DNA of 41,514 nucleotides. Source: a virus. Position numbers and translations under genes: made by a program. Of this stretch, positions 23,998-37,266 are shown piece by piece. Numbering within the stretch: the stretch's first letter is position 1; the number at the start of each line of letters is the position of its first letter. The stretch spans positions 1 through 41,514 of the IMG/VR virus record IMGVR_UViG_3300020021_000023; one strand, given 5' to 3'. The notes under the pieces are model-generated. The model saw nothing but the letters and a program-made list of their open reading frames with translations, made no database searches and was not told where the DNA came from.

Positions 23998-26130
23998 ATG
24001 AAAAAGCTTCTGCTTCTGCTCTGTCTCCTTCCCTTTGCAGCTCTAGCCCAATCGACCATCAAGCCCGACTGCATCATTCCAGTAAACTTCACCACCACAA
24101 ACGTAACCTCCAATCTGACCTGTGGGAACAACACCCTCGGCATTGCAAACTGGGTCTTCGTCTACTCGAGCACCGGCTTTTCGGCATTGTCCATCGTCGT
24201 CCAAAGCGCTCCGGATGCCGGGGGGACTCCTGGGAGCTGGGGCACGTTCGGCGGAACGGTGCTCACAAACGTCCAGTATCCCGGCAGCTCGGGCATCAAC
24301 CCGAACACGTCGGCTACCAGCGCGAACACCGGATTCGCAGGCTACTTTCCGTGGGTCCGCGTGAACCTCGCGAGCATCACGGGGACAGGGAGGGTTACGG
24401 GCGTGCTGTACGGCTTCCTCAACTCCACACTTGCTAAAGCGGGCTCCGGAGGCGGCGGCGGGGGCGGAGGGCCGACAATCACAGGGAACGCGAACCGGAT
24501 CGTTGTAGCGGGTGCGGGGTGTACGAGTCCGTCGACGGCGACGTGCAATATCGACATTCCGTCGAATGCCGCATTCCCAGGCGCTCCGACTACAACCACG
24601 GCAGCACTGGGTGACAGCAGCACGAAGATTGCAACCACAGCATTTGTGAATAACGCCTTTGCCGGGTGTACGTTTATCACGGGCGCTCTGAGTTGTCCGG
24701 GTCCGATATCTGCCGGGGTTGGCAGCGGCACGACGGGCGCCCTCGACCTTGTCGGATCGACATCCTCGGCGACGTCGACCGTAACCGTGGACGCTACGAA
24801 CACCGCGACTGTGGTGAAACTGCCGAACGATGCGACCAGTGGCCTGTATGTGGTGACCAGTCCAAGCGCGACCCCGACGTCGGGACGGTGCGCACAGTTC
24901 AACGGAACCGGCACGCAAATTGCACCGGCGCCGGCGGCATGCGGAACGGGTAGCGGTGGAACCGGCGCGACAGTGTTTTCGACTACGAATTCGACGACGG
25001 TAACGCAGACCTCTCCTACAACGTTAATCGGCACCGTTACCGGCAGTACCACGGTCGCGGCGAACACTTTTGCAGCCGGGCAAATTCTCGAAGTCGTAGC
25101 TCAGGGCTTTTACTCTACCCCGGTCACTCCAGCCAGCCTGACGATCACGCTCAATATCGGCGGGACAATCCGGTTAACCACGGGCGCGGTTGTGCAAATC
25201 GCATCGGTGACAAGCGGGGTTTGGCGTGTATGGTGTGCGGTGACGACTCGGACGGCGGGAGTATCCGGTACGCAAATTGCGAATTGCATTTTTGAAGGTA
25301 CCGGAGTGAGTCTAACGCCCGCCGAGTCGCCGATGCAGACCAGTTCAACCTGGACGATCGACACGACAAGTACACAGGCAATCGATGTTCTGGCGACCTG
25401 GAGCACGGCCACGGGCGCACCGACGATCACCAGCACGAACGTAGCAGCCTGGTTTCCCGGCAATTCTTCAAGTGGAGGCGGAGCGCCTGGCGGATCTGCG
25501 GGGCAGTGGCAGGCGAACAACGCGGGGTCTTTCGGCGGGTTGACGGGTACCTCGATTCTCCCGGTAGCGGGATGGACGATCCAGAATGCGGCGGTTTTCA
25601 ATAACTTCTCAACGGCGGAAATCGGCGTGTATGTGCTCGACAACTCTTCGTTGAACTGGCGGTTCATCACGCGGGCGGTCCCCGGCGGCGGAACGTATAC
25701 CCTTGCTGCAACGCTGCTGTGCTTGCCTCCGACAAGTTCCAACAGTTCAACCTGTGATTTCGGGCTTTCTGATGGGACGAAGTACGAGAACTACGAAATC
25801 CTCTATCAGGCTGGCAGCAGCGCAGGCGCGAATAACTTGAGAATCGAGCAACTCACCAACACGGGCACAGATGGCGGTCCTGCCTTCGCCGCCACAAAGG
25901 GCTTGACGACATCCTACACGTCCTTTTGCATTGTCGAGGACGGAACACACAGGACGTGGTCGCACTACTCCAATGGAGCATGGGTGCAGGATTTGCAAGA
26001 AGCAACGGGAACGTTTTTGACTCCTACTCTTCTTGCTGTGGGCGGGCTGTCAGCCACTAATGATGCGGGGAAGTTTATGCAGACGAATTTGAAGTACTTG
26101 TTCACGTCGACGGGGACTACGTGCCCTTAG
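23998..26130 (+). CDS. Large secreted fibre-like protein, 710 residues
   Basis: It has a clear signal peptide (MKKLLLLLCLLPFAALAQ). The first 150 residues are beta-rich and a Gly linker follows at about 158-167. The segment GAPTTTTAALGDSSTKIATT-AFV resembles the STKIATTAFV motif of phage tail fibres. The C-terminal part (about 520-710) is LamG-like: FNNFSTAEIGVYVL, WRFITRAVP, RTWSHYSNGAWV. A fibre motif together with a Sec signal is unusual. It may be an exported adhesin, or a receptor-binding protein matured in the host envelope. Confidence 0.7.
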   Translation: MKKLLLLLCLLPFAALAQSTIKPDCIIPVNFTTTNVTSNLTCGNNTLGIANWVFVYSSTGFSALSIVVQSAPDAGGTPGSWGTFGGTVLTNVQYPGSSGINPNTSATSANTGFAGYFPWVRVNLASITGTGRVTGVLYGFLNSTLAKAGSGGGGGGGGPTITGNANRIVVAGAGCTSPSTATCNIDIPSNAAFPGAPTTTTAALGDSSTKIATTAFVNNAFAGCTFITGALSCPGPISAGVGSGTTGALDLVGSTSSATSTVTVDATNTATVVKLPNDATSGLYVVTSPSATPTSGRCAQFNGTGTQIAPAPAACGTGSGGTGATVFSTTNSTTVTQTSPTTLIGTVTGSTTVAANTFAAGQILEVVAQGFYSTPVTPASLTITLNIGGTIRLTTGAVVQIASVTSGVWRVWCAVTTRTAGVSGTQIANCIFEGTGVSLTPAESPMQTSSTWTIDTTSTQAIDVLATWSTATGAPTITSTNVAAWFPGNSSSGGGAPGGSAGQWQANNAGSFGGLTGTSILPVAGWTIQNAAVFNNFSTAEIGVYVLDNSSLNWRFITRAVPGGGTYTLAATLLCLPPTSSNSSTCDFGLSDGTKYENYEILYQAGSSAGANNLRIEQLTNTGTDGGPAFAATKGLTTSYTSFCIVEDGTHRTWSHYSNGAWVQDLQEATGTFLTPTLLAVGGLSATNDAGKFMQTNLKYLFTSTGTTCP

Positions 26131-26171
26131 TACTCCTGATCCATTGTCAGCAGATTCTTTTTCCTGATAGG
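26131..26171. other. Short 3' flank shared with the 19519 gene
   Basis: TAGTACTCC at the stop and TTTTTCCTGATA near 26155 repeat the arrangement after the 19519 gene. It ends at E24. Confidence 0.35.
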
Positions 26172-26223
26172 TTGGCCTCACCGAACCTGAATGTTGCACT
26201 TGAGCGGCGTGGGTTCGACAGGG
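26172..26223 (+). repeat. Boundary element E24, forward
   Basis: TTGGCCTCACCG...GTTCGACAGGG, followed by AGGG and ATG 26232. Internal pairing CCTCACCG/CGGCGTGGG. Pairs with E25. Confidence 0.9.
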
Positions 26224-26231
26224 AGGGTTAA

Positions 26232-26576
26232 ATGCCGATTTATATAACTGAGCGTTCAATCGCGGTACAGGCTCCGGTGTTTTATTGCGACACTTGCGGG
26301 GCGTCGATGGATTTGGTATCCGAACTGGCCGACTTTCGGCTGCTACGGACGGGCGGAAGAGCCGAGGGTATGGCTATGGCTTACGGCTGGCTGCATGAAA
26401 TACCCGGTATTCCGAATACGGTCGAGAAAGCTGTTGCCTCTGCTGCCGGGCGGGGTTGGGTCACGGAGGACATCCACGGAAAAATCATGGCAATATGCCC
26501 TTTGTGCAAAGTGAAGCCAATTGTCGCTGGTGAACATTCGGTCCAAGCCAAAAAGCCGGGCGAGGCCAAACCATGA
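26232..26576 (+). CDS. Zinc-binding cassette protein ending KPGEAKP
   Basis: The 114-residue protein has CDTCGASMD near residue 20 and CPLCKVKP near 94, two CxxC pairs that probably bind one zinc ion around a helical insertion (AYGWLHEIPGIPNTVEKAVA). Tail KKPGEAKP from E25. GGAGGG from E24 is the ribosome binding site. Nucleic-acid or protein adaptor, unknown. Confidence 0.7.
   Translation: MPIYITERSIAVQAPVFYCDTCGASMDLVSELADFRLLRTGGRAEGMAMAYGWLHEIPGIPNTVEKAVASAAGRGWVTEDIHGKIMAICPLCKVKPIVAGEHSVQAKKPGEAKP
26521..26570 (-). repeat. Boundary element E25, reverse
   Basis: TTGTCGCTGGTGAAC...GGGCGAGGCCAAA-CC-ATG. The inner block is the class B left variant (TGTCGCTGGTGAAC) placed at a right end. 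GAGG is 7 nt before ATG 26573. Confidence 0.85.
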
Positions 26577-28132
26577 ACACCGTTTTGCTCGCCGTCGTTA
26601 TACTGCAAACCGTCTCCGTCCCGATAGCGCACAACGACTCAGCACAAACAGGCTGGAACCCCTCAGAATCCCAACTCACCCCCTCAAACGTAGCATCGGG
26701 TAAATTCGGCAAGCTGGGAACCTGGAACGTCGACGGCTTCGTGTTCACCCAACCGCTGCTGGTCCGCTCCGGCTCAACTAACCTCGTGATCGTCTGCACG
26801 CTCGCGAACACGGTTTTCGCCTTCAACGCGGACAAGCCGGGAACCTCGGCCGTCTGGTCGGTCAACTTCGGCACCGGGCGCGGTGGCTGGTCGAACAACG
26901 CATCGTCGGCACTTCAGCTTTACGGCTCGTCATTTGGAATTATCGGCACCCCGGTAGCGGACGAAGCGGGCGGGTTCCTGTACGTCGTGACCTCGAACAC
27001 CACGCCGAACTACCAACTGCGCAAATTGAATCTGACGGATGGTTCGGCGGCGGTTGCGGCGGTTCCGGTTGCTGCATCAGTTCCTGGCACGGGCTCACCG
27101 GGCGATCCGACCAGCGGGCCTAACCTCCTGTTTTCAGCCTCAATGACGACTCAGCGGTGCGCCTTGACGCTCTCGCCCGACGCGTCCACGGTCTACGTCA
27201 CATTCGGCGGCGGCTCGGCGGGAACAATTCCCCCACCCTGGCACGGCTGGGTGCTGTCCTACCAGACTTCGAACCTGACGCAGCTCGCGGCCTTTTGCGC
27301 GACTCCCAACGCGAACGGCGGTTCAATCTGGATGTCCGGCGGGGCTCCCGCGATCGATGCGGCTGGAAACCTGTACGTAGTCACTGGCAGTGAGGGCGCG
27401 TGGGACGGGACGACGGATTTCCCGGACACGATGCTGAAGCTTTCTCCTTCCTTGGTTTTGCTCGACTGGTTCACGCCCTCAAACCACGCCACTTTGGACG
27501 CCAACGATTTCGACTTCGGGGCAACGCGGGCGATGATCTTTCCCGGTACCTCCCTGGTGTTCGGGGCGGGGAAGGATTTCAACGTGTACGGCGTCGACGG
27601 CGGGTGCATGGGCCATCTTCAGGGATCAAGCGGCTGCACGTTGCAGGCTTTCCCAACCAACTCAGGCGGTACGGTAACGAAGTTTTCTGGCTCCTACGGC
27701 GGGGTGACGGCGAACGGGCTGCTGTTTCTCGCCACTACGGCGGGCTCGATTTACGAGTTTTCCTGTCCCTTGGGAATCTGCAACCCGACACCGGTTCACA
27801 CGCAAACGAATACGTACGGATTCCCTGGATCGGCTCAGATGTCCGCATCGAGTAACGGGGCGTCGAACTTGATTCTGTGGGTGGTGACGCCGGCGACCAG
27901 TTCTTTCACGGCGACGGCGGCGGGGACTGTTCGGGCTTTGGACTCGACGCTAACGGAGTTGTGGAACTCGGGTTCAACGCTCGGGACGATGGCGAAGTTT
28001 GTTTCGCCCACGGTTGCGAATGGCAGGGTGTTTGTGCCGACGAATGATAATACACTCATGGTGTTTGGCTTGCTTCCGAGTTCGGGATTGAGGGGGCAGA
28101 GTGCGCTTCGTGGCAGTGGGGGGATAAGATAG
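26573..28132 (+). CDS. Secreted PQQ-like beta-propeller protein, 519 residues
   Basis: A hydrophobic N-terminus (VLLAVVILQTVSVPI) acts as a signal or anchor. The sequence then follows the HND...QTGWNPSES...LTPSNV...FGKLGTWNVDGFVFTQPLLV pattern typical of secreted PQQ-like beta-propellers, with repeated blade motifs (VFAFNAD, GSSFGIIGTPVADEAGGFLYVVTSN). Such proteins are common in Acidobacteriota secretomes. It was probably acquired from the host and may bind a surface or polysaccharide. Its start overlaps the previous cassette gene (ATGA). Confidence 0.75.
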   Translation: MNTVLLAVVILQTVSVPIAHNDSAQTGWNPSESQLTPSNVASGKFGKLGTWNVDGFVFTQPLLVRSGSTNLVIVCTLANTVFAFNADKPGTSAVWSVNFGTGRGGWSNNASSALQLYGSSFGIIGTPVADEAGGFLYVVTSNTTPNYQLRKLNLTDGSAAVAAVPVAASVPGTGSPGDPTSGPNLLFSASMTTQRCALTLSPDASTVYVTFGGGSAGTIPPPWHGWVLSYQTSNLTQLAAFCATPNANGGSIWMSGGAPAIDAAGNLYVVTGSEGAWDGTTDFPDTMLKLSPSLVLLDWFTPSNHATLDANDFDFGATRAMIFPGTSLVFGAGKDFNVYGVDGGCMGHLQGSSGCTLQAFPTNSGGTVTKFSGSYGGVTANGLLFLATTAGSIYEFSCPLGICNPTPVHTQTNTYGFPGSAQMSASSNGASNLILWVVTPATSSFTATAAGTVRALDSTLTELWNSGSTLGTMAKFVSPTVANGRVFVPTNDNTLMVFGLLPSSGLRGQSALRGSGGIR

Positions 28133-28138
28133 TTCTTT

Positions 28139-28204
28139 ATGTCGGCCTCGTCACAAGCGGCAGGAACGTTGACGGTTCACCAGCGACACGGGGGCCGTCC
28201 GTGA
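28139..28204 (+). CDS. Cassette leader ORF from E26
   Basis: A 21-codon frame, MSASSQAAGTLT-VHQRHGGRP, is wholly element-encoded and its TGA overlaps GTG 28201. It has the same layout as the N-terminus of the 14896 protein. Confidence 0.4.
   Translation: MSASSQAAGTLTVHQRHGGRP
28141..28190 (+). repeat. Boundary element E26, forward, class B left end
   Basis: GTCGGCCTCGTCACAAGCGG...GGTTCACCAGCGACACGG. Matches E53 almost exactly in ACGTTGACGGTTCACCAGCG. Confidence 0.9.
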
Positions 28205-28572
28205 TCGTCCAGGATGGGGTTGAGGTTCTCGAATCTATCAGCCTGGCGTTCCCGAACATCTCTCCGGTGGACATGGCCCACCTGTTTGACCGTTGCAGCG
28301 TCAAGGTTACCGTCAACCATAAGCTGATCGCAGACCCCTCACTTAAGCACTTTGATCCGGTAGGAGATTGGCATCGCTTCGAACTCGAATACAAAGTAAA
28401 GCCGGGCGATTCTGTGGTAGTCCACTTCGACACCGTCCCCCCATTCACGACAGAATACGGCCTGACGCTTAATGCTGCTTTGAGTTTTCGCGGGAACATT
28501 AACGCCCTCCACCTGGCCGGACGCTTCAACGCCGAACGAAGCCACCCCGGAAGACCGGAGGCCAAAGCATAA
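28201..28572 (+). CDS. Class B cassette protein, 123 residues
   Basis: GTG start, mostly beta: VTVNHKLIADPS, FELEYKVKPGDSVVVHFD, YGLTLNAALSF. Tail HLAGRFNAERSHPGRPEAKA encoded by E27, matching the C-termini of the 14896 and 39580 proteins. Its TAA overlaps the M23 start. Function unknown. Confidence 0.65.
   Translation: MIVQDGVEVLESISLAFPNISPVDMAHLFDRCSVKVTVNHKLIADPSLKHFDPVGDWHRFELEYKVKPGDSVVVHFDTVPPFTTEYGLTLNAALSFRGNINALHLAGRFNAERSHPGRPEAKA
28513..28566 (-). repeat. Boundary element E27, reverse, class B right end
   Basis: CTGGCCGGACGC...GGAAGACCGGAGGCCAAA. Same class as E13 and E52. Confidence 0.9.
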
Positions 28573-29162
28573 TGTACGTACGCCGCGGCTTCGGTGCCAC
28601 ACTGACCCCACCCATCTCAGGCTCACCGATCATCTCCTCACTCTTCGGACCACGTACCCAACCGACTCCAGGAGCATCGACAAACCACCAGGGCATCGAC
28701 TACGCGGTACCCGTGGGCACGCCCGTCTTAGCGGCAGGGGACGGCGTAGTCACATTTGCGGGGCAGCAAAGCGGCTTCGGCAACACAGTCATTGTGTACA
28801 ACGGCAACGGCGTAACGACGCTCTATGGGCATTTGTCGAGCATCGGGGTTGCGGTAGGCCAGCCGGTTTCAGACGGCTCTCAGATCGCGCTATCGGGCAA
28901 CACGGGCACAACGTCGGGGCCGAACCTGCACTTTGCGGTTTTTGATAACGGGGTGGCGGTCGATCCCACGACGCAGCTCGCGCCGATCGACACGTTCAGC
29001 CTTGCGGATTCGACCGCGACAGACACGCCCTCGTTTTTCGATTCCTTGTCCTCGGACTTCTCGGACTTCACCGATTCAACGGACGCCTCGACGGTCAGTC
29101 CTGGGTTAGTTTTGGGTGGGATCGCGCTGGGGTTGCTGGGGCTGTGGGCGGCTACGCGGTAG
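28572..29162 (+). CDS. M23 peptidase with C-terminal membrane helix
   Basis: The 196-residue protein starts MYVRRGFGA, like the small virion proteins. It then has an M23 domain: NHQGIDYAVPVGTPVLAAGDG, VIVYNGNGVTTLYGHLSSI and GPNLHFAVF give the HxxxD, HLS and HxH-like residues of zinc-dependent endopeptidases that cut peptidoglycan crosslinks. A terminal helix (LVLGGIALGLLGLWA) and TR follow. Domain plus anchor suggest a virion-borne entry enzyme or a lysis factor. The MYVR start links it to the structural set. Its last bases overlap the convergent minus-strand gene. Confidence 0.85.
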   Translation: MYVRRGFGATLTPPISGSPIISSLFGPRTQPTPGASTNHQGIDYAVPVGTPVLAAGDGVVTFAGQQSGFGNTVIVYNGNGVTTLYGHLSSIGVAVGQPVSDGSQIALSGNTGTTSGPNLHFAVFDNGVAVDPTTQLAPIDTFSLADSTATDTPSFFDSLSSDFSDFTDSTDASTVSPGLVLGGIALGLLGLWAATR

Positions 29163-29310
29163 GGCCTAGCGGGTCGATCAGCCGGTCGAGAACTCCAAAG
29201 AAGACGAAGATAACCGCCACTCCCACAAGCAACACAAGCAAGGGAATCATGGCGAGGATCACCAGAAAGTAGAACAGGTTCTTTAGGTTTGTCCAGAAAC
29301 GTTCGATCAT
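29152..29310 (-). CDS. Small membrane protein, 52 residues
   Basis: MIERFWTNLKNLFYFLVIL..., a long hydrophobic stretch (FYFLVILAMIPLLVLLVGVAVIFVFF), probably one or two helices. Last gene of the minus operon; it overlaps the M23 gene end by 11 bp in a convergent arrangement. GAGG of E28 lies 9 nt before its ATG. Holin-like size and position next to the peptidase make it a lysis candidate. Confidence 0.65.
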   Translation of the reverse strand: MIERFWTNLKNLFYFLVILAMIPLLVLLVGVAVIFVFFGVLDRLIDPLGPTA

Positions 29311-29313
29311 TAT

Positions 29314-29358
29314 TTTGGCCTCACCAACCGCGAGCCTCTTTGAACTGTTCGACATGTG
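29314..29358 (+). repeat. Boundary element E28, forward
   Basis: TTTGGCCTCACC...GTTCGACATGTGG. Right end, in transcript sense, of the E28-E29 cassette on the minus strand. Confidence 0.8.
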
Positions 29359-29360
29359 GC

Positions 29361-29555
29361 TCATTTTTTGCCGTTGGCAATCTCTCTATCGCGCCATCGG
29401 GCTTCCCAGAACTCCCGGCGCAACTGCTCGGCCTCGGATTTCGACAGCTTCCCTTCCTTCAGACCGGCGGCGATCATGCGGAACAAACGGACCCGGAGCG
29501 ATTCCGTGTTCCGGGAACGCAGGTGCGCTTCGTTTCTTTGGACTTTGGCGGTCAT
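29361..29555 (-). CDS. Helical cassette protein with MTAKVQRNEA N-terminus
   Basis: The 64-residue protein MTAKVQRNEAHLRSRNTESL... is Arg/Glu-rich and helical (EGKLSKSEAEQLRREFWEARWRD). Its N-terminus is shared with the chimeric 29792 gene. The start overlaps the previous stop (ATGA). Confidence 0.65.
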   Translation of the reverse strand: MTAKVQRNEAHLRSRNTESLRVRLFRMIAAGLKEGKLSKSEAEQLRREFWEARWRDREIANGKK

Positions 29556-29749
29556 CTGTAATCGCTGACCTCTATCACGTCGCGCATTGTGCCGGTCTGC
29601 GATTCGCCCAGCCGTGGACGCCAATCAGCCTGATCCACCTGCGTTTGAACCGCATCCGTTGCCATGCACCAATGGCCCTCGCCATCGAAGAAACCAACCT
29701 CGATATCCGGCATCGTCAATAGTTTTTGAGCCAATTCCCTTGTCGTCAT
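29552..29749 (-). CDS. Small cassette protein, 65 residues
   Basis: MTTRELAQKLLTMPDIEVGF-FDGEGHW... with a helix and then strands; ends VIEVSDYR. This order (helix, PD-x-E-V, short strands) resembles small phage proteins of unknown function. AAGGG lies 6 nt upstream, just after E29. Confidence 0.65.
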   Translation of the reverse strand: MTTRELAQKLLTMPDIEVGFFDGEGHWCMATDAVQTQVDQADWRPRLGESQTGTMRDVIEVSDYR

Positions 29750-29760
29750 TGAACCCTTTC

Positions 29761-29811
29761 CATGTCGAACCCGATTCCTCAACGCGCGATCTCAGTGCTG
29801 TTGAGGCCAAA
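29761..29811 (-). repeat. Boundary element E29, reverse
   Basis: CATGTCGAACC...AACGCGCGATC...GTTGAGGCCAAA. Left end for the minus strand; its outer block encodes SLWPQQH and the stop of the 29792 gene. Confidence 0.85.
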
Positions 29812-30007
29812 GACTCGAAATCCTGTTCAACTCCTCCTGTGAACAGTGCGACGAACTCATAATCACAATCACGTCCCCCGGCAGCGAACCGGACAACGCA
29901 ATCGTTCCTACCGGCAACTCCAGCACCGCGCACAACAAGCGGGCGCGTAGTGTTTCGGTATTGCGGCATCGCATTGCGGCTTCGTTTCTTTGGGCTTTGG
30001 CGGTCAT
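29792..30007 (-). CDS. Chimeric gene: MTAK N-terminus fused to a DUF192 C-terminus
   Basis: 71 residues. The first 24 (MTAKAQRNEAAMRCRNTETL) match the 29361 protein. The rest (AVLELPVGTIALSGSLPGDV-IVIMSSSHCSQEELNRISSLW) matches the last 45 residues of the DUF192 protein at 30278. The DNA match to 30291-30420 is close to identity over the first 70 bp, so the fusion is recent. It stops within E29, at the place where the parent stops within E30. A shuffled, perhaps non-functional product. Confidence 0.65.
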   Translation of the reverse strand: MTAKAQRNEAAMRCRNTETLRARLLCAVLELPVGTIALSGSLPGDVIVIMSSSHCSQEELNRISSLWPQQH

Positions 30008-30231
30008 AGATCCCTTGCCTCCGGCTGTTTCAAGCGTAGGCATTGCTTTTTGACGCTGCCGAACGACTCCCAGCACAGTTCGATGTTTTCTTCTCGCAAC
30101 AATCGATTGACCACGCCAGGATTGAACGCCGTACAGAGTACAGTACCTTCGTGCCTTATTCTGTGGATTGCCTCAACCGCATGTTTCGACAGCGGATGTG
30201 TCTTAGTTCCGTTTAACGGTGTCCAGTTCAT
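30004..30231 (-). CDS. Small unknown protein, 75 residues
   Basis: MNWTPLNGTKTHPLSKHAVE-AIHRIRHEG... then GVVNRLLREENIELCWESFG and KKQCLRLKQ. Compact and helical. AGGAAGGGG from E30 is the ribosome binding site. The start of the next gene overlaps its stop. Unknown. Confidence 0.6.
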   Translation of the reverse strand: MNWTPLNGTKTHPLSKHAVEAIHRIRHEGTVLCTAFNPGVVNRLLREENIELCWESFGSVKKQCLRLKQPEARDL

Positions 30232-30243
30232 TGCAAGCCCCTT

Positions 30244-30297
30244 CCTGGTCGAACGCTCTCAACTCCCCGCGCAGCCGTCAGGCCGAATGAGGCCAAA
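30244..30297 (-). repeat. Boundary element E30, reverse, TGGTCGAACG variant
   Basis: CCTGGTCGAACGCTCTC...CCGCGCAGCCG...AATGAGGCCAAA. Left end on the minus strand without a separate right end. Confidence 0.8.
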
Positions 30298-30712
30298 GAC
30301 TCGAAATCCTACTCAACTCCTCCTGTGAACAGTGCGAAGAACTCATAATCACAATCACGTCCCCCACTCTGGTACCGGACTGCGCAATCACCCCGGCGGG
30401 CAATTCGAGCACGGCTGACAGCTCCGGCGGAATCCGCGTATTGAAGTGGCACGTAGGCGGGGCGTCGGAAAGCGCTTTCTGAACCCGGTGGGTCAACATG
30501 TCGATAAAAAGCACGTCGATGTTCATGGACATCTGGACCGTGTGAATCGCGTTGCACCCTTCGAAGAACAGTCCGGCACCTGGCTGGAACTCTTGGGCGC
30601 TCACTCCGATCAGGCCGTTTAGCTTCTCTTCGCGCGTCGATGCAATGTCGGCGTGGGTTGCCAGAATCGAGGTTCTGGTTGCATTGGTGATTCTGAGAGT
30701 GGGCCGTGTCAT
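30278..30712 (-). CDS. DUF192-family protein
   Basis: 144 residues. LNGLIGVSAQEFQPGAGLFF, then HTVQMSMNIDVLFIDMLTHR, APPTCHF and AVLELPAGVIAQSGTRVGDV follow the DUF192 pattern (RGLM...GMLF...FWMKNT...IDLIFID...VLELPAG...GD). DUF192 proteins are small beta domains of unknown biochemical role, often exported in bacteria. There is no signal peptide here. Its stop lies in E30; its last 45 residues were copied into the 29792 gene. The start overlaps the previous stop (ATGA). Confidence 0.75.
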   Translation of the reverse strand: MTRPTLRITNATRTSILATHADIASTREEKLNGLIGVSAQEFQPGAGLFFEGCNAIHTVQMSMNIDVLFIDMLTHRVQKALSDAPPTCHFNTRIPPELSAVLELPAGVIAQSGTRVGDVIVIMSSSHCSQEELSRISSLWPHSA

Positions 30713-30993
30713 TTTGGGTTGGCCTCCGGTCTTCCTTGTTCGGCTTCGGGCGGCTGTCGGCGTCCGACCAGGTCGGGGACTAGATTCTTCCCAACGAAGA
30801 GGCGCTTGAACCGTTCGCCGTCCACCTTGACGAGGATTCGCTTGTCCGTGACTTTTTCCACGATTCCCTTCAATGTCGGCATGGTCCTGTGCATGACTCG
30901 CATTCCGGGGAGAAATACTGGTCCTGGTCGAACGCTTTCAGGCTCACGTGCAGAACCCGCGCCGACTGAGGCCAAAACATCATCGTTTGCCAT
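30709..30993 (-). CDS. KOW-like small protein with translated element at both ends
   Basis: 94 residues from ATG 30993 (AGGA 8 nt upstream). Residues 6-24 (VLASVGAG-SAREPESVRPG) are read through E32. The core TLKGIVEKVTDKRILVKVDG-ERFKRLFVGKNLV looks like a KOW-type beta motif. The end DLVGRRQPPEAEQGRPEANPK is from E31. A shorter start at ATG 30903 would skip E32. Candidate RNA- or protein-binding adaptor. Confidence 0.65.
   Translation of the reverse strand: MANDDVLASVGAGSAREPESVRPGPVFLPGMRVMHRTMPTLKGIVEKVTDKRILVKVDGERFKRLFVGKNLVPDLVGRRQPPEAEQGRPEANPK
30719..30772 (+). repeat. Boundary element E31, forward, class B
   Basis: TTGGCCTCCGGTCTTCC...GCGTCCGACCAGG. Translated in reverse sense as LVGRR...GRPEAN. 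Pairs with E32. Confidence 0.85.
30923..30976 (-). repeat. Boundary element E32, reverse, TGGTCGAACG variant
   Basis: CCTGGTCGAACGCTTTCAGG...GACTGAGGCCAAAA. Nearly the same as E49 in its inner 28 bases. Confidence 0.85.
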
Positions 30994-31052
30994 TGGTGGA
31001 AATCCTATCACAACACCGGACCGTTTTCGATAGTTCCAAACCGATTCCGGTA

Positions 31053-31220
31053 CTAGGTCCAGACGTTGCCGTTATCGTCGATCACTCGCACGGCGCTGCG
31101 CTTTTGGATCGTCAATGCGCGCGCGGTTTGAATTGCCAGCGGGAGGGATGCGAACGGGCCGTATCCCTCCAGTTCTGTCCAGGTGTTGCGGAATCTGCAC
31201 TGGCATTCTAGGTAGTACAT
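31053..31220 (-). CDS. Small unknown protein, 55 residues
   Basis: MYYLECQCRFRNTWTELEGY-GPFASL... then ALTIQKRSAVRVIDDNGNVW. A typical short phage-type beta/alpha protein with LxxA...VRVIDxxGxV. Start lies just downstream of E33, about 20 bp from its outer block. No family is named. Confidence 0.6.
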   Translation of the reverse strand: MYYLECQCRFRNTWTELEGYGPFASLPLAIQTARALTIQKRSAVRVIDDNGNVWT

Positions 31221-31225
31221 GGGGA

Positions 31226-31564
31226 TTAGCCTCTTGGGTTGGCCTCACCGGCCTGTTGTTCTGGCGCGTCGGGGGCTGAGGGTTCGACATGGAGGGCTTC
31301 CTGGTTCTCGGAAATAGCGCTCTCGATCTCATCGCGGGTCAGGGCTCCATACCTCACGTCCGGTCCGCCCCACACTTGTCTGCTAAGCTTGCGAAGTTCG
31401 AGAATATTCAAGAGTCCCTGGCTGTTCCTTATCAGTTGGGCTTCCAGTCTCTTACAGCGCTCGCACTCCGGCTGTCGAGCACTCTCCCCTTCCCGCGAAG
31501 CATCCGATTGTGGCGAGGCCAAACCATAAGATTCAAACCCTGCCCGGCAACCATCGCAGATCAC
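31226..31564 (-). CDS. Zinc-finger-like cassette protein with internal element
   Basis: 112 residues. MICDGCRAGFESYG holds one CxxC; then residues from E34 (LASPQSDASREGESARQP) separate it from ECERCKRLEAQL, the second CxxC. A helical region and the E33-encoded tail VEPSAPDAPEQQAGEANPRG follow. The element thus sits between the two halves of a probable zinc site. Confidence 0.7.
   Translation of the reverse strand: MICDGCRAGFESYGLASPQSDASREGESARQPECERCKRLEAQLIRNSQGLLNILELRKLSRQVWGGPDVRYGALTRDEIESAISENQEALHVEPSAPDAPEQQAGEANPRG
31239..31292 (+). repeat. Boundary element E33, forward
   Basis: TTGGCCTCACCGGCCTG...GTTCGACATGG. Translated in reverse sense as VEPSAPDAPEQQAGEA. Pairs with E34. Confidence 0.85.
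31472..31523 (-). repeat. Boundary element E34, reverse
   Basis: CTGTCGAGC...GATTGTGGCGAGGCCAAA. In-frame as LASPQ...ESARQP within the 31226 protein. Confidence 0.85.
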
Positions 31565-31914
31565 GGGCCTTGGTCCGTCCGACCAGGAATGACGCTCTGG
31601 GGTCCCCGCGTGGCCGCGTAAATTCCTAGGTCTGCCAACTCATGCAATTCCCCTACTATGCTGGCAATCTCAGCTTTTGTTCTTGAACCTTCGATCAAAG
31701 ACCTGATGCTTTCCAGGGCGCCGAACATTTGGTAAGACGCTGCCAATAATTGCGCCGTCGCCTCCCCGTTGTGTGCCGGGTACACTGTGGCGATCGCGCC
31801 GTCGTCGTTTTTGATGAGAATCCACCGTTCGCCCTTGCTCCCTCGGGCTTTTCCTTCTTCGTCGATTACGATTTGGACTTCGTAGGGTCCTGGTGCTGGT
31901 GACTGGTTTTTCAT
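31561..31914 (-). CDS. Unknown protein, 117 residues
   Basis: PGPYEVQIVIDEEGKARG, then ERWILIKNDDGAIATVYPAH and a helical segment (ATAQLLAASYQMFGALESIR, TKAEIASIVGELHELADLG). The end SVIPGRTDQGP lies in a partial class B element (E35). It resembles small phage proteins of the LIAAAPELLE group. Start overlaps the previous stop (ATGA). Confidence 0.65.
   Translation of the reverse strand: MKNQSPAPGPYEVQIVIDEEGKARGSKGERWILIKNDDGAIATVYPAHNGEATAQLLAASYQMFGALESIRSLIEGSRTKAEIASIVGELHELADLGIYAATRGPQSVIPGRTDQGP
31565..31587 (+). repeat. Boundary element E35, forward, partial
   Basis: GGGCCTTGGTCCGTCCGACCAGG. Outer and inner blocks are fused without the variable middle; probably a deletion remnant. 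Confidence 0.5.
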
Positions 31915-32294
31915 TTTGTTTTGGCCTCCAATTGGCTATCTGGCTCCGTGGGGTTATTGTTCGTCCGACCAGGAAGGGTTTCGCGGCCCTCCGCTTTGGC
32001 GATGGCTACGGTGGCGGGGCGGCACATATCACACAAGTTTCCCCTGGGATGCCTAGGTTCGCCAGGGGTCTTGCCGCATCCTGCGCATTTGATTGCCCTC
32101 AGCGCTTGCAGTAGCTCCGGCGCGGCGGCGATCAGATTCGCTCTGTAGTGATATTTAATCCAAGAAACGGGATCGCTGTATTTCTCAACGCGCGATGTAG
32201 TCGCTAAGATTTTTCCCTGTTCATCACGAATGCAGGCGCCCGCTTCATCGTGTTCACCAGTGAATCCCGATATTACCCATTTTTCTGTGCTCAC
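31911..32294 (-). CDS. LIAAAPELL-type phage protein, 127 residues
   Basis: GTG start with AGGAGATG upstream. KWVISGFTGEHDEAG, NLIAAAPELLQALRAIKCAG and CGKTPGEPRHPRGNLCDMC (possible zinc site) are followed by AIAKAEGR. The LIAAAPELL...AIAKAEG frame is a common small phage protein type of unknown role. The tail LPGRTNNN...SQLEAKTK comes from E36. The next gene (32291) is its tandem relative. Confidence 0.7.
   Translation of the reverse strand: MSTEKWVISGFTGEHDEAGACIRDEQGKILATTSRVEKYSDPVSWIKYHYRANLIAAAPELLQALRAIKCAGCGKTPGEPRHPRGNLCDMCRPATVAIAKAEGRETLPGRTNNNPTEPDSQLEAKTK
31919..31973 (+). repeat. Boundary element E36, forward, class B
   Basis: TTGGCCTCCAATTGG...TTCGTCCGACCAGG. Right end for the 31911 gene. 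Its partner is the half-element E37. Confidence 0.8.
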
Positions 32295-32623
32295 AATTCA
32301 TCTCCTGGTCGAACGCGTCCCTCCGCTTTGGCGATGGCTGCGCGGGCGGTTTTATAGCGCTGAAGGGTGTCGTCCATTGAATCGTGATTGGCGTCGATGG
32401 CGATAATGTCCCTCAATGCGTCCAGCAGCTCCGGCGCGGCGGCGATCAGTCGGACGTTGGCTATTTCTTCGGCAGTCCAACCTTGATCCTTGTCGTCCTG
32501 GGGGCCGACCCCACATACCGGACGTCCGGAAGCATCCAGAATACCGATCACGTCAGCCCTCTCGAAGGATGCAAGATACGATTCTTCCATCCTCCACGGG
32601 CCAAGCCAATGCTTCGCGCTCAT
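32291..32623 (-). CDS. LIAAAPELL-type phage protein, 110 residues
   Basis: MSAKHWLGPWRMEESYLASF, then VRLIAAAPELLDALRDIIAI and ARAAIAKAEGRVRPGDEL. Paralogue of the 31911 gene; both contain CCCTCCGCTTTGGCGATGGC-type DNA at the same place. The ORF extends 26 codons upstream, but ATG 32623 overlaps the previous stop (ATGA) and is preferred. Confidence 0.7.
   Translation of the reverse strand: MSAKHWLGPWRMEESYLASFERADVIGILDASGRPVCGVGPQDDKDQGWTAEEIANVRLIAAAPELLDALRDIIAIDANHDSMDDTLQRYKTARAAIAKAEGRVRPGDEL
32303..32318 (-). repeat. Boundary element E37, reverse, inner half only
   Basis: TCCTGGTCGAACGCG with no GAGGCCAA. It supplies AGGAG for the GTG of the 31911 gene. Confidence 0.5.
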
Positions 32624-32874
32624 GCGGCCTCCGCGATTCCCAGCGTAGCTTCGGAGCGATTCAGCTTCGCGCGTAACTGCTGGTTTTGCTGTTTCATCCA
32701 AGTCAATTGTAAGTTGAGGTTTCGGATCAGGGCCAGCAGATCGTCGATCTCCCGCGCCCGTTCGGTTGCGTCTAGTGTGTTTGGGTCCATGCGTCGATTA
32801 TGCGATTCTGACGCGGGGCGGGGAATGGTACGGAAGTGCCGAATAAGAGGGGAAAACGCCTTAGTTCTTCTCAT
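32620..32874 (-). CDS. Coiled-coil protein, 84 residues
   Basis: The C-terminal half (EIDDLLALIRNLNLQLTWMK, QQNQQLRAKLNRSEATLG) is a coiled coil. Start either ATG 32874, 7-9 nt after the GAGG of E38, or ATG 32790. Dimerising regulator or scaffold possible; unknown. Confidence 0.6.
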   Translation of the reverse strand: MRRTKAFSPLIRHFRTIPRPASESHNRRMDPNTLDATERAREIDDLLALIRNLNLQLTWMKQQNQQLRAKLNRSEATLGIAEAA

Positions 32875-32877
32875 GGA

Positions 32878-32930
32878 TTTGGCCTCACCGGGTACTGGTC
32901 TGCGCGGGTGGGGTTGTGGGTTCGACATGG
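32878..32930 (+). repeat. Boundary element E38, forward
   Basis: TTTGGCCTCACCGGG...CTGCGCGGGTGGGG...GTTCGACATGG. Centre and inner block match partner E39. Confidence 0.9.
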
Positions 32931-32948
32931 GAAGGTTCCGTTGCATAA

Positions 32949-33218
32949 TTACCCGTTCAGGCGTCTCCACCGTTCTTTCGCTTTCTGCAGTAGGGCTACC
33001 ACTCGGAGTACTTCCGGGTCGGAGATCAGTGAATCGTCCGGCACTTTTCGAAGTTGGTCGTCAAACCGGTGTGGCTTAAAGCATTTGATACATATCCCGA
33101 TATCGCCGGAGCCCGGTAGTGTATCTCCGGAAACTCTGTCTGCCTCGTATCCGCACGACGGACAGGCGGTCCTGGGAACTTTCGATTCAAAGTTACAGTG
33201 TTTCAGTCGATTGGTCAC
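32949..33218 (-). CDS. Zinc ribbon cassette protein, 89 residues
   Basis: GTG start 10 nt after GGAGGAG in E39. RTACPSCGYEADRVSG and IGICIKCFKPHRFDDQ give a CxxC...CxxC ribbon, followed by a helical, basic C-terminus (LRVVALLQKAKERWRRLNG). Likely nucleic-acid binding. Confidence 0.7.
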   Translation of the reverse strand: MTNRLKHCNFESKVPRTACPSCGYEADRVSGDTLPGSGDIGICIKCFKPHRFDDQLRKVPDDSLISDPEVLRVVALLQKAKERWRRLNG

Positions 33219-33226
33219 AACTCCTC

Positions 33227-33279
33227 CATGTCGAACCCGCACCCCTCACGCGCAGCCGTCAAGGCCCGTGAGGCCAAAC
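33227..33279 (-). repeat. Boundary element E39, reverse
   Basis: CCATGTCGAACCC...ACGCGCAGCCGTC...CGTGAGGCCAAA. Good example of the class A consensus. Confidence 0.9.
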
Positions 33280-33285
33280 CATCAT

Positions 33286-33519
33286 CTACCCGCCGCCCAA
33301 CACCCACTGATCCACCGTCTGCCAGATCAACCCGGAAGGCAGAATAAACGGCTTTTTCAAAATTACCAACGTCAACTTCACCCCGTCGTAGTTGTACTTC
33401 AGATCGATCCCCTTGAAGCTCAACACGCCTGCGGTACCCTCCGGTAAGGCGACACCCTGTAGTAAGAGACGGGAGCGTAAGGCGTCGAACTGCTGGGGTG
33501 TGAGGGAGTAGATTTTCAT
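33286..33519 (-). CDS. Small beta-rich protein, 77 residues
   Basis: MKIYSLTPQQFDALRSRLLL, then GVLSFKGIDLKYNYDGVKLT and LVILKKPFILPSGLIWQTVD. The order 'LTPQQFDALR...DL.Y.Y.G..L...I..KP' is a known style of small phage protein without assigned function. Start overlaps the upstream stop (ATGA). Confidence 0.65.
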   Translation of the reverse strand: MKIYSLTPQQFDALRSRLLLQGVALPEGTAGVLSFKGIDLKYNYDGVKLTLVILKKPFILPSGLIWQTVDQWVLGGG

Positions 33520-33824
33520 TTGGCCTCCGGTCCCGCACCGCTGCTTCGGTCGGCGGTATCGCGTCCGTCCAGGACTGGCGCTAGCGGATTCCCAACCGGC
33601 AAGCCGGCATACTCGCACAACTCGGCGATTCGCCGAATCAACTCAGGACCGTTTTCAGCCCGGAACAGGGCGCAGGGCACCAGTTCTCCCGACGTGTCAT
33701 CCCATTCCCTCATCAGTGGATGCCGGATGCCGACAAAGAATTTCTTGCAGCCGGGTTGCTGGCATTCACACGGCTGTACCAGAAACTCGGGACCCGGCTC
33801 GCGTTTACGCCTCTTTATTTTCAC
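33516..33824 (-). CDS. Basic cassette protein ending GPEAK, 102 residues
   Basis: GTG start with GGGAGGGG upstream. CECQQPGCKKFFVGIRHP suggests a small metal site, followed by an acidic/helical part (LIRRIAELCEYAGLPVG). Tail from E40. Unknown. Confidence 0.65.
   Translation of the reverse strand: MKIKRRKREPGPEFLVQPCECQQPGCKKFFVGIRHPLMREWDDTSGELVPCALFRAENGPELIRRIAELCEYAGLPVGNPLAPVLDGRDTADRSSGAGPEAK
33519..33573 (+). repeat. Boundary element E40, forward, class B
   Basis: TTTGGCCTCCGGTCCC...GCGTCCGTCCAGG. Encodes LDGRDTADRSSGAGPEAK in reverse sense. Its partner E41 is class A, so classes can mix. Confidence 0.85.
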
Positions 33825-33833
33825 AACCCCTCC

Positions 33834-33882
33834 CTGTCGAACCCACGGCTCCCACGCGCGGACTCAAGTCCGGTGAGGCCAA
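33834..33882 (-). repeat. Boundary element E41, reverse
   Basis: CTGTCGAACCCACGGCTCCC...GTCCGGTGAGGCC. With its flanks it is nearly identical to E43, 300 bp away. Internal stem GGACT-CAA-GTCC. Confidence 0.95.
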
Positions 33883-33894
33883 CGAAAACACATC

Positions 33895-34131
33895 TCATTT
33901 GTCGGCCTCGCCGGGATGTGCGGCTTGGACCGGCTCCGAAGTCTCGACAGTTGGCTTTTCGGTGATTTCCAGATGGAAACCGTAGACCCGATCGTTGAAT
34001 AAGACTTCAACCGGTAGCCCGGTCAGCCTTTCGAGATCGAACGCTTGCCGGCAGACGTCGTGCAAAAAACTGCCGTTGTTCGCCCGGACCTGTACCAACT
34101 CTATCTCGCTGAATTGCTTATGTATGCTCAC
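33895..34131 (-). CDS. Small cassette protein ending PGEADK, 78 residues
   Basis: GTG start, GGGAGGG upstream from E43. MSIHKQFSEIELVQVRANNG, then CRQAFDLERLTGLPVEVLF and HLEITEK, an alpha/beta mix. Its C-terminus (VETSEPVQAAHPGEADK) is from E42. The gene is bracketed by E42 and E43. Confidence 0.65.
   Translation of the reverse strand: MSIHKQFSEIELVQVRANNGSFLHDVCRQAFDLERLTGLPVEVLFNDRVYGFHLEITEKPTVETSEPVQAAHPGEADK
33899..33950 (+). repeat. Boundary element E42, forward
   Basis: TTGTCGGCCTCGCCGGG...GTCTCGACAG. Pairs with E43. The 15 bp between E41 and E42 is one of the shortest cassette gaps. Confidence 0.85.
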
Positions 34132-34514
34132 AAACCCTCCCTGTCGAACCCACGGCTCCCACGCGCAGACTCAAGTCCGGTGAGGCCAAAATATCGCAGT
34201 CGAAACATCCGGATCAACCCGTACCGATCCAGCCGATGCACCAACCAAAACCGTTTTCCAAGCGTGTGATGCGATTTCGGAAGCCCCCGCTCATGATGCA
34301 CCCGGCAGAACGGCAGCACTTCCCAGCCGTCGCACAACTGCGAAAGCCCACGCATCCCCACGTGACAAACCTGCACCCACCTACGCGACCCACAGACCGC
34401 GCACGGCTGCTCTCTGATCCAATCCCAGTACGCGAGGATCTCCGGCGGCACGACGTAGCGGCGCGGCTTGCGCTTGAGCCAGGAACGGCGGAGGGGTGTG
34501 TAGCGGGCGATCAT
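34128..34514 (-). CDS. HNH/DUF968-like protein with element-encoded tail
   Basis: 128 residues. PCAVCGSRRWVQVCHVGMRG, then LPFCRVHHERGLPKSHHTLG and KRFWLVHRLD follow the pattern of small phage HNH-like proteins (CxxC...H, then C..HH..G...H). Zinc coordination and a beta-beta-alpha nuclease fold are inferred. The end RYFGLTGLESARGSRGFDR is read through E43 in another frame, so the natural C-terminus appears replaced. Start ATG overlaps the upstream stop. Confidence 0.75.
   Translation of the reverse strand: MIARYTPLRRSWLKRKPRRYVVPPEILAYWDWIREQPCAVCGSRRWVQVCHVGMRGLSQLCDGWEVLPFCRVHHERGLPKSHHTLGKRFWLVHRLDRYGLIRMFRLRYFGLTGLESARGSRGFDREGL
34141..34190 (-). repeat. Boundary element E43, reverse
   Basis: CTGTCGAACCCACGGCTCCC...AGTCCGGTGAGGCCAAA. 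Nearly identical to E41. Supplies GGGAGGG for the 33895 gene. Confidence 0.95.
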
Positions 34515-34696
34515 TCGGTGCCTGCGCACGCGCCGATCCACAGCAACGCTATTGCTGCGGCGGAAAAGAAAACACAGCCTAGAATGTTCCAGCCGCCTCC
34601 CCAGGAGATCGCGGTCGGCATAATCCATCCGATGTTTCCTATTAGGATTCCCACCACGACTCCGAACACTAGGCCGATAACCCGCTCTCGTTTCAC
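34511..34696 (-). CDS. Two-helix membrane protein, 61 residues
   Basis: GTG start 12 nt after the inner block of E44. Two hydrophobic segments (VIGLVFGVVVGILIGNIGWI and ILGCVFFSAAAIALLWIGA) separated by a short polar loop. Likely a small inner-membrane protein. The end overlaps the 34128 start (ATGA). Confidence 0.65.
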   Translation of the reverse strand: MKRERVIGLVFGVVVGILIGNIGWIMPTAISWGGGWNILGCVFFSAAAIALLWIGACAGTE

Positions 34697-34953
34697 AATT
34701 CCCCATGTCGAACCCGGCACCCCCCACGCGCAGCCGTCGAGGCCGGTGAGGCCAACCCCAAAAGCTTCCTTCCCCACGCCGTTACCGGCTTTCCATCCCG
34801 TACATGCACCACACATTCCCCCTGTGGCCGATCTCCGCTTTCGTTCCATCCGTAGGAACCTGATCCCTTTCCACCTTCGCTTGCCGGGCCGTTTCCGAGC
34901 TGATGCGCACGTCCGCCGAAACGCTGCACTGAGAATCTGATGGGTTCGTTCAT
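34693..34953 (-). CDS. Small protein with element-encoded C-terminus (LASPAS...VRHGEL)
   Basis: 86 residues. The body MNEPIRFSVQRFGGRAHQLG is followed by CVVHVRDGKPVTAWGRKLLG. The last 20 residues (LASPASTAARGGCRVRHGEL) come from E44. In this case the left element end supplies a C-terminus rather than an N-terminus. Start is ATG after GAGG in E45. Confidence 0.65.
   Translation of the reverse strand: MNEPIRFSVQRFGGRAHQLGNGPASEGGKGSGSYGWNESGDRPQGECVVHVRDGKPVTAWGRKLLGLASPASTAARGGCRVRHGEL
34703..34756 (-). repeat. Boundary element E44, reverse
   Basis: CCATGTCGAACCCGGC...ACGCGCAGCCGTCGAGG...GGTGAGGCCAA. Class A consensus; no own right end. Confidence 0.9.
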
Positions 34954-35183
34954 GGTTTGGCCTCGTTACGGGTTGCGGCTTGGACGGGCGCGGCACCGTC
35001 GACAAGCGGCGATTCATTCACGGTCAACATCAATTCTTCCCTGACTGCGAAGATGTTCACGGGGGCCTTGAATTTCTGCCCGACCTGAATAGCCCACTCT
35101 TCGGCCATTTCCTTTGTGGGGCAGAATGTTTGCACGGTTCGCCCGTCTTCTTTAACGCCAACAACTACAGCGCGGAACTTCAT
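34950..35183 (-). CDS. Small cassette-end protein ending RNEAKP, 77 residues
   Basis: MKFRAVVVGVKEDGRTVQTF, then FCPTKEMAEEWAIQVGQKF and VNIFAVREELMLTV. The KFRAVVVG...W-tail style recalls small phage beta/alpha proteins. Tail from E45. Start ATG overlaps the upstream stop. Confidence 0.65.
   Translation of the reverse strand: MKFRAVVVGVKEDGRTVQTFCPTKEMAEEWAIQVGQKFKAPVNIFAVREELMLTVNESPLVDGAAPVQAATRNEAKP
34956..35004 (+). repeat. Boundary element E45, forward
   Basis: TTTGGCCTCGTTACGGG...GGCACCGTCGACAAG. Right end without a clear left partner upstream of the 35180 gene. Confidence 0.75.
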
Positions 35184-35557
35184 AACCAGCGTTTCTCCTT
35201 CCAGGGCAGTTCAGCCGGCGGAAACGGGCTCAACGGCTTGTACAGATCGGGCGGCCGGGTGTCAGCCACGTAGTACGGGATATGCCGGGCCGGAATCGAC
35301 ATCTTGCCGTCGTCGACCAGGCACCAGCCACGCGGATCGACCGCTTTGATTACTTCGCGGGTTGCGCCCAAGGAAAGACCCATGCCCGGCTGAAGCGCGT
35401 CGAAGCGTACGCCGTTCTGAGTTCGCTGGACGCGGTTCATGGCGTCGAGCTGTTCATGGTACTTCCGGACGCTCCACGCGTGCTCTGCGATGTAGTAGAG
35501 GGCTCCCAGCAGCATACAGGCTCCGGTGGTGAGGAGAAATATTTCAGGGGTGTTCAT
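35180..35557 (-). CDS. Membrane-anchored protein, 125 residues
   Basis: N-terminal helix (IFLLTTGACMLLGALYYIA), then a coiled segment and a soluble domain with VRFDALQPGMGLSLGATREV and GWCLVDDGKMSIPARHIPY. Unknown. It overlaps its neighbour at 35183 (ATGA). Confidence 0.65.
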   Translation of the reverse strand: MNTPEIFLLTTGACMLLGALYYIAEHAWSVRKYHEQLDAMNRVQRTQNGVRFDALQPGMGLSLGATREVIKAVDPRGWCLVDDGKMSIPARHIPYYVADTRPPDLYKPLSPFPPAELPWKEKRWL

Positions 35558-35559
35558 TG

Positions 35560-35613
35560 TTTGGCCTCCGGTCCGGCTTAGTGGCTTCGATCAGTCTGGG
35601 AGCGTCCGACCAG
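35560..35613 (+). repeat. Boundary element E46, forward, class B
   Basis: TTTGGCCTCCGGTCCGG...AGCGTCCGACCAGG. Pairs with E47 (class A). Partly translated as LVGRSQTDRSH. Confidence 0.85.
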
Positions 35614-35829
35614 GATTGAGTATTCCAACCGCTTGATTGCTTCCTTCAGATGGATAACCTCTTCCATCGATTCAGCCCACTCCGCACCGGTCTGGCATTT
35701 CGCAATATCCAGCACCTTGGAAATCCTGCCTTTCAGCCAAAAGATTACATCCGCAGTTTGCAGTTCGGCGACAGCCATCCGAAGGCTCTCCATCGCACGC
35801 GACATATCGGCGGTTATCGTTTCGCACAT
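35578..35829 (-). CDS. Helical cassette protein ending LVGRSQTDRSH, 83 residues
   Basis: MCETITADMSRAMESLRMAV, then ADVIFWLKGRISKVLDIAKC and WAESMEEVIHLKEAIKRLEY. Predicted helix-rich; unknown. Start overlaps the previous stop (TAATG). Confidence 0.65.
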   Translation of the reverse strand: MCETITADMSRAMESLRMAVAELQTADVIFWLKGRISKVLDIAKCQTGAEWAESMEEVIHLKEAIKRLEYSILVGRSQTDRSH

Positions 35830-36212
35830 TACTGCACCCTCCCGGCGCCCGCCGTCTTCGCAGGCGCGAAAATGTCATCCGGCAGATATTCTTCCATCGT
35901 GTCCTCTAAAATCTGATTGCGCTGTTTTGTCGACGGCTTGCGATATCCCGACCGGTCAACCCGTGGGGCAATAGCCGCATGTCGAACACGCCCGCCTTGG
36001 AGCGAAGCGCGATCGTCCGATGAGGCCAAAATGAACGCATCTAAGAATCTTGCCAACCTCCGTACCCCAGTCAGCCACAACACCCCAGCACCAAGGGACA
36101 CGGCAAGAAAGAAGCCAAGCCCGACAAAAGCGGCAGGGCGTCCGCCGGCTGAAATCACGATTCCCGTTATCAGCACCGAACCGGCGAGAAAGGCGAGTGA
36201 GTTTTTAATCAT
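35829..36212 (-). CDS. Membrane protein with internal element-encoded region, 127 residues
   Basis: Start at ATG 36212 (AGGAG 9 nt upstream). Two helices (LAFLAGSVLITGIVISAG, AAFVGLGFFLAVSLGAGVLW) are followed by RLARFLDAFI, then LASSDDRASLQGGRVRHA read from E47, then a basic region (RVDRSGYRKPSTKQRNQILE). It looks like an upstream gene fused in frame to the left end of the E46-E47 cassette. Confidence 0.65.
   Translation of the reverse strand: MIKNSLAFLAGSVLITGIVISAGGRPAAFVGLGFFLAVSLGAGVLWLTGVRRLARFLDAFILASSDDRASLQGGRVRHAAIAPRVDRSGYRKPSTKQRNQILEDTMEEYLPDDIFAPAKTAGAGRVQ
35977..36030 (-). repeat. Boundary element E47, reverse
   Basis: GCATGTCGAACACGCCC...GCGCGATCGTCCGATGAGGCCAAA. In frame as LASSD...GRVRH in the 35829 protein. 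Confidence 0.85.
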
Positions 36213-36283
36213 TGGGTCCATCTCCTGATAAAGAGTTTGCCTGTTTGCCTTGCGCGGATCAATGGTACTTTCGCCGTAGAAAT
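36213..36283. other. Short intergenic gap
   Basis: 71 bp between the minus genes at 36212 and 36284. It holds the AGGAG for the 36212 start and no element or gene that I can see. Confidence 0.4.
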
Positions 36284-36538
36284 CTACTTACTCTGGGCCT
36301 TAGTACGTTGGGTCTGCTTTCCGCATTTGCAGACGAGGAGCGATGTCGGGTTCATGCGTCCGCACTCGCACGCACGGCGGGAACCTGCGCGACGTGTCCA
36401 TTTCTTTCCGGCACGCATTCTGCCATCTGCCAATCTTTTCGCGCTGGTAGCCAAACCGTGCGCGCGGCTGGTCGACGAAGCCCAGTCAACCCATCGTTCA
36501 AGATCAAACGGCTTCCCGTCTTTGCCCGCTCCGCTCAT
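36284..36538 (-). CDS. Zinc ribbon protein, 84 residues
   Basis: MSGAGKDGKPFDLERWVDWA, a helical and basic middle, then ACECGRMNPTSLLVCKCGKQ, a CxC...CxC ribbon. Not bracketed by elements on either side. Overlaps the 36535 stop (ATGA). Unknown role. Confidence 0.65.
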   Translation of the reverse strand: MSGAGKDGKPFDLERWVDWASSTSRAHGLATSAKRLADGRMRAGKKWTRRAGSRRACECGRMNPTSLLVCKCGKQTQRTKAQSK

Positions 36539-37199: not shown

Positions 37200-37212
37200 T
37201 TTGAAACCCCTT

Positions 37213-37266
37213 TCCTGGTCGAACGCTCTCAGCTCGACGCCTCAAAACCGCCGACTGAGGCCAAAG
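37213..37266 (-). repeat. Boundary element E50, reverse
   Basis: TCCTGGTCGAACGCTCTC...GACTGAGGCCAAAG. Left end with no separate partner; the small 37242 ORF ends inside it (FGLSRRF). Confidence 0.8.

Follow-up and report, generated by a model that had tools for sequence, protein, structure and literature searches.

Within the virus record analysed here (the window, 41,514 bases, with an end repeat of 138 nt at 98% identity), a 71-codon gene on the minus strand (29792-30007) joins the beginning of one neighbouring gene to the end of another. This chimera has two ages; its recent part ends abruptly at a dispersed intergenic element, the element bodies beyond that point do not match, and the same arrangement recurs elsewhere. 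Judged from divergence, only the last ~70 nt and the junction between gene and element appear to have been recently common to the chimera and the gene that it resembles there. The locus is best filed as gene conversion between two related gene ends, with a dispersed intergenic repeat as its boundary.

Composition of the chimeric gene

Read along the minus strand, the locus runs from a DUF192 gene (30278-30712) through element E30 (30236-30300, plus strand, CTGGTCGAACGC subclass), a gene at 30004-30231, the chimera, element E29 (29752-29814, plus strand, CATGTCGAACCC subclass) and a gene at 29552-29749 to the gene we call MTAK (29361-29555). All of these genes are encoded on the minus strand, and the two intervening genes overlap the start codons of the chimera and of MTAK, respectively (ATGA). 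We take the E29 and E30 of an earlier sequence-only reading to be these two elements. Additional elements of the same family lie at 29311-29365 (minus strand) and 30915-30979 (plus strand), and the gene upstream of DUF192 reads across another, at 30715-30780 (minus strand), which the DUF192 start follows directly.

The gene at 30278-30712 matches PF02643 (E 4e-11, 43.3 bits, above the curated cut-off of 27); the same profile search assigned no family to the chimera alone. The first 24 codons of the chimera (MTAKAQRNEAAMRCRNTETLRARL) are identical to those of the MTAK gene at 18 positions, and the 47 codons that follow continue the frame and pair with the final 47 codons of DUF192. At the nucleotide level, 29934-30007 matches the first 74 nt of the MTAK gene (29482-29555) at 77-80%, and the 133 nt at 29802-29934 are 83% identical to 30288-30420. 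The MTAK homology begins exactly at both start codons (30007, 29555) and stops at 29934, where the DUF192 match starts. The sequence-only reading had described a neighbour's N-terminus fused to the DUF192 end, with a DNA match between the two DUF192-related blocks, and both descriptions are borne out.

Two ages within the chimera

Identity between the chimera and the DUF192 gene changes in a single step at 29879 (change-point permutation 1 in 10,000): 75 of 78 positions agree on the element side (29802-29879 against 30288-30365, both minus strand), versus 35 of 55 beyond it (29880-29934 against 30366-30420; Fisher 2e-6). About 10 nt of the 78-nt tract is the conserved end of the element itself, and with this included the previously reported near identity over ~70 bp is confirmed. 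The window holds no third copy of the tract (2 matches, 0 expected). Synonymous sites follow the same step, with dS 0.13 (dN 0.05) across the terminal 26 codons and dS 2.17 (dN 0.24) across the adjoining 18, the first of the DUF192 part (p 0.003 for the contrast), so that the near identity reflects recency rather than protein constraint. A sharp change in divergence that includes synonymous sites and falls within older homology is the signature expected of gene conversion.

The remainder of the chimera is old. Its MTAK part differs from the MTAK gene with dS 0.91 and dN 0.15, and its older DUF192 part is about equally distant from the resident DUF192 gene (35/54 identical) and from the DUF192 ortholog of a related record, G002 (33/54; resident to G002, 32/54), which, together with the high dS, indicates that the fusion is old. 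Over the recent part the corresponding values are 67/72 for chimera and resident, 43/72 for chimera and G002, and 39/72 for resident and G002. The claim that the chimera is recent therefore fails, and recent duplication holds for the terminal 78 nt but not for the rest. The DUF192 tail of the chimera may, by these distances, have come from another viral lineage. Ratios of dN to dS of approximately 0.1-0.2 in both old parts suggest that both are translated and have been kept under purifying selection, some of which may predate the fusion.

The tract edge and the two elements

The recent tract comes to an abrupt stop where each element has its conserved end, a stretch of ~10 bp (TGAGGCCAAA, the A-end) common to most elements. 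E29 and E30 are of separate subclasses and 75% identical, a level reached by 57 of the 946 element pairs in the window; the nearest relatives of each fall within its subclass. Among the six related records DUF192 is carried by three (G001, G002 and G003), in none of which does an element lie at its 3' end. The G002 gene (57% identical) ends at its own stop codon, which both the DUF192 gene of the window and the chimera lack; each instead reads five codons into its element and stops there, at element positions 42 and 40, respectively, in keeping with the earlier observation that both copies end in an element at the same codon. Their last three residues differ because they are translated from element sequence. 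Among genes facing an element in the same way, one other stop lies in an element body (G001, position 39) and two lie in element margins (G003, positions 7 and 56).

It had also been proposed that the duplication ends at the element, and this stands for the recent tract, which ends at the A-end of both elements, but not for the fusion, whose breakpoints map well away from them: the fusion point (29934) is ~120 nt from the nearest element and the MTAK start-codon boundary (30007/29555) ~190 nt from any. The unrearranged order in relatives is seen in part, as a DUF192 3' end free of an element in G001-G003; the order stays incomplete, since a loose tblastn of the six related records gave, among the rows shown for MTAK, the chimera and DUF192, no convincing MTAK gene or second DUF192 fragment.

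The history that we consider probable, though well short of certain, is an old fusion followed by a short gene conversion of the gene end up to the element A-end. An in-frame fusion of two gene ends would have produced the chimera, which purifying selection would have maintained. Later, the last ~70 nt of the gene and the gene-element junction would have been copied between the chimera and DUF192, in either direction. Homology between the DUF192 tails would anchor such a tract on one side; on the other it would stop within the ~10-bp A-end, beyond which the element bodies, of different subfamilies, are unmatched. We infer that the agent was homologous conversion rather than a dedicated recombinase, and that the common A-end served as the anchor.

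A family of intergenic elements in an uncharted virus group

Profiles were built from the window and then from relatives, which had been found by element patterns and have genes in common with the window; a retrained profile, which had come to favour a single subclass, was combined with the original one. These profiles identified 277 elements in seven related records (44 in the window, 55 in G001, 28 in G002, 61 in G003, 74 in G004, 13 in G005 and 2 in G006) and none in reversed sequence. Further subclasses that surfaced later raise the total to at least 309 (44-49 in the window), so all counts are lower bounds. The elements are ~62 bp long, occur in both orientations, reach a density of roughly one per kb where the records are larger, and have conserved ends and a variable middle (aaaCctCTCCTGGTCGAACG...GaTGAGGCCAAAacA). 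They are concentrated at gene ends (245 of 277, against 78 expected at random), with 10 inside genes (179 expected) and 22 in neither position.

At a forward element, the reading frame of the upstream gene usually continues into the element, and GAGGCCAAA precedes the start codon of the next gene. At a reverse element, the upstream gene usually has its stop codon immediately outside TTTGGCCTC, and the start codon of the next gene comes after the other end (GTTCGACCAGGAGG in one subclass). Forward elements at 28504-28569, 30715-30780 and 39583-39648 of the window, among others, encode C-terminal tails whose last residues ahead of the stop codon are EAKP, EAKA, EANP or similar. Start codons at the A-end carry a Shine-Dalgarno-like sequence in 85 of 87 cases and those at the opposite B-end in 39 of 44, compared with 210 of 376 elsewhere, a comparison biased towards finding such sequences because the gene-calling heuristic rewards Shine-Dalgarno matches. 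Counted independently of gene calls, GAGG or GGAG occurs at the A-end of 287 of the 309 elements and the Shine-Dalgarno complement at the B-end of 200. Most elements thus carry, as read from their motifs, a putative Shine-Dalgarno sequence facing outward at each end.

Two further arrangements were seen. Pairs of elements of opposite orientation stand back-to-back within the 145-nt gap that separates the same two genes in G001 (17826-17970), G003 (56334-56481) and G005 (11287-11434). A divergent class of similar build (AGCGCGAACG...GGAGCGCCAA) lies beside start codons, mostly in one genome (G001 8013-8076, 35088-35152, 48917-48984, 38638-38701 and 6479-6543).

The virus group to which these records belong is uncharted. 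GenBank phage relatives were found neither by megablast of 24000-41000 nor by tblastn of the 11028-11699 protein or DUF192. Peptide scans of a viral contig collection returned no match for DUF192 or MTAK and one distant match for M23 (L055, 31%), and ten of the largest genes in the window have no PHROG match. Among 50 proteins scanned from several genomes, single members match HerA/FtsK-type ATPases, a terminase PHROG, an integrase PHROG (1 of 50) and a resolvase; the predicted fold of a candidate structural protein is of poor quality (mean pLDDT 42.6). The element pattern gave six single matches in a genome contig collection, in unrelated taxa, which we read as chance.

Recurrence of element-bounded tracts

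Element-bounded conversion is a recurring pattern. Of 14 intragenomic duplications, each of which covers 50 nt or more of non-element sequence in both copies, four have the same end inside an element in both copies (the window locus, G001 39838/40527, G003 37425/39585 and G004 51983/53044), and two end in an element in one copy only (G001 3638/4053, window 8559/16605). The last of these is a duplicated cysteine-rich segment (8559-8638 and 16605-16684, 86%), one copy of which ends at an element and the other at a possibly decayed element. Identity over the 60 nt nearest the element versus the rest is 95/67% at the window chimera locus, 97/78% and 95/77% in the two G001 cases and 93/78% in G003; the G004 case (75/81%) has no gradient and switches in mid-element. 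All five tested element-bounded ends face the A-end, and A-end-bounded tracts thus occur, in two related genomes, in three of the four other testable cases. Comparison with eight ends of duplications that lack an element end gives p 0.03, in a small sample. Where cross-genome homologies end in elements (in both genomes for 62 ends and in one for 39), no identity gradient is seen.

It is conceivable, if unlikely, that the elements are bystanders, and that ordinary phage mosaicism leaves breakpoints that survive best at gene junctions, many of which happen to be occupied by elements. In cross-genome comparison, endpoints appeared enriched at elements when measured against coverage (182 of 1168, 90 expected), an excess that disappeared with gene junctions as the reference, where 192 fell at element-bearing junctions and 205 were expected for a random choice of junction. 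The MTAK homology, too, begins precisely at a start codon that has no element nearby. Against the bystander account, abrupt near-identical tracts reach the A-end at four of the five element-bounded ends and are absent at other ends. Conservation of gene adjacency is lower at elements (55/104 versus 107/164, p 0.054; 55/413 versus 107/624, p 0.098), a difference that is at most suggestive, as genome pairs are not independent. The element-mediated rearrangement proposed in the sequence-only reading is accordingly supported in part, with similar tracts at elements in G001 and G003 but no excess of breakpoints over other junctions; a causal role of the element in tracts or in rearrangement is putative.

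Copying and possible mobility of the elements

Elements also behave as dispersed, copied units. At least 113 element pairs share 84% identity or more, with flank identity mostly ~0.2-0.5 among the pairs listed, and the clearest recent copy in the window (33824-33886 and 34131-34193) is 94% identical with flanks at 0.42 and 0.25. Among 90 conserved gene adjacencies an element is present in both genomes in 20, in one in 17 and in none in 53, so near-identical copies with unrelated flanks are accompanied by presence and absence at orthologous junctions. One such junction, between glycosyltransferase and methyltransferase genes, has an element in G004 (28900-29130) and G006 (3360-3560) and none detected in the window (7860-8030), G001 or G005, with the position of GGAGG kept.

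Copying as units, and the orientation of all five tested ends towards the A-end, would fit a process that moves elements and that cuts or switches template at the A-end, carrying along 50-80 nt of the adjoining gene end. We regard such a process as quite unlikely to explain the locus: the fusion point lies ~120 nt from an element, and the elements could be linked to no enzyme of mobility. A serine recombinase (PF00239) is encoded in three of the seven records (G001 41451-41891, where it adjoins an element, G003 31861-32301 and G004 44306-44746) and is absent from the window, and is therefore not needed for the window's elements. Repeats at element edges, such as target-site duplications would leave, are no more frequent than expected by chance (29 versus 28.6), and only 4.7 of 15 end positions match as terminal inverted repeats; a transposon or MITE is rejected on these grounds.

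That a metagenome assembler created or collapsed the near-identical 78 nt is very improbable even for a metagenome-derived record, as 3 of the 78 positions distinguish the two tracts, each tract is part of an open frame, and two other records have similar ones.

Comparison with known systems

Gene conversion between paralogous genes occurs in phage genomes, and the chimera resembles such cases in its short recent tract within old homology, but here the tract has its edge within a dispersed element that stands outside the paralogy. Integron attC sites are ~60 bp long, lie between small genes in gene-cassette arrays, carry the core boxes RYYYAAC and GTTRRRY, and belong to systems with the tyrosine integrase IntI. 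The elements are likewise ~60-bp sites between small genes; unlike attC sites, they occur in both orientations and have no conserved fold (mean z over 277 elements -0.38 forward and -0.10 reverse, with an empty alignment fold) and no core boxes (none in 309 elements on either strand, where shuffles give 0.18). Rfam returned no match for the elements.

Promoter early stem-loops (PeSLs) of T4-like phages (Arbiol et al. 2010, Comeau et al. 2014, as summarised in part of PMC4503421) are also short, dispersed intergenic cassettes tied to gene shuffling. The elements differ from them in having neither a conserved stem-loop nor an excess of promoters (one sigma-70-like promoter, the only type covered, in the 7 kb at 29000-36000, versus 2.7 in shuffles), their shared feature being translation starts on both strands. 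In cluster K mycobacteriophages, the 13-bp SAS GGGATAGGAGCCC lies just upstream of starts, almost always in one orientation, and SAS/ESAS are proposed in PMC3203893 as possible targets for homologous recombination. The link between repeats and gene starts is common to both, but the elements, ~62 bp long, point either way, have a start at each end and, in addition, supply upstream genes with their 3' ends; membership of the SAS family is ruled out by the different consensus, the different length and the two orientations. By analogy the elements might work like PeSLs or start-associated sequences, though the features of those systems that we tested were absent. The literature covered, mostly abstracts with parts of PMC3203893, PMC4177764 and PMC4503421, contained no recognised description of the elements.

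Implications

It has long been asked what keeps phage genomes mosaic, and whether short repeats at the borders of genes promote exchange or simply mark where it happened. To this question the locus contributes a dated case, an old fusion with a recent patch edged by an element. The elements themselves are the larger and more interesting find. A tentative and somewhat doubtful extension is that they are hundreds of mobile, ~62-bp, two-way gene linkers whose A-end seeds conversion, so that gene ends are copied or swapped; they would be translation-level cassettes without known integron or transposon features. If so, such linkers would end the upstream gene and start the downstream gene in either orientation, by means of outward Shine-Dalgarno sequences at both ends. 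With about one element per kb, the family would make the question of promotion or marking statistically testable with more genomes.
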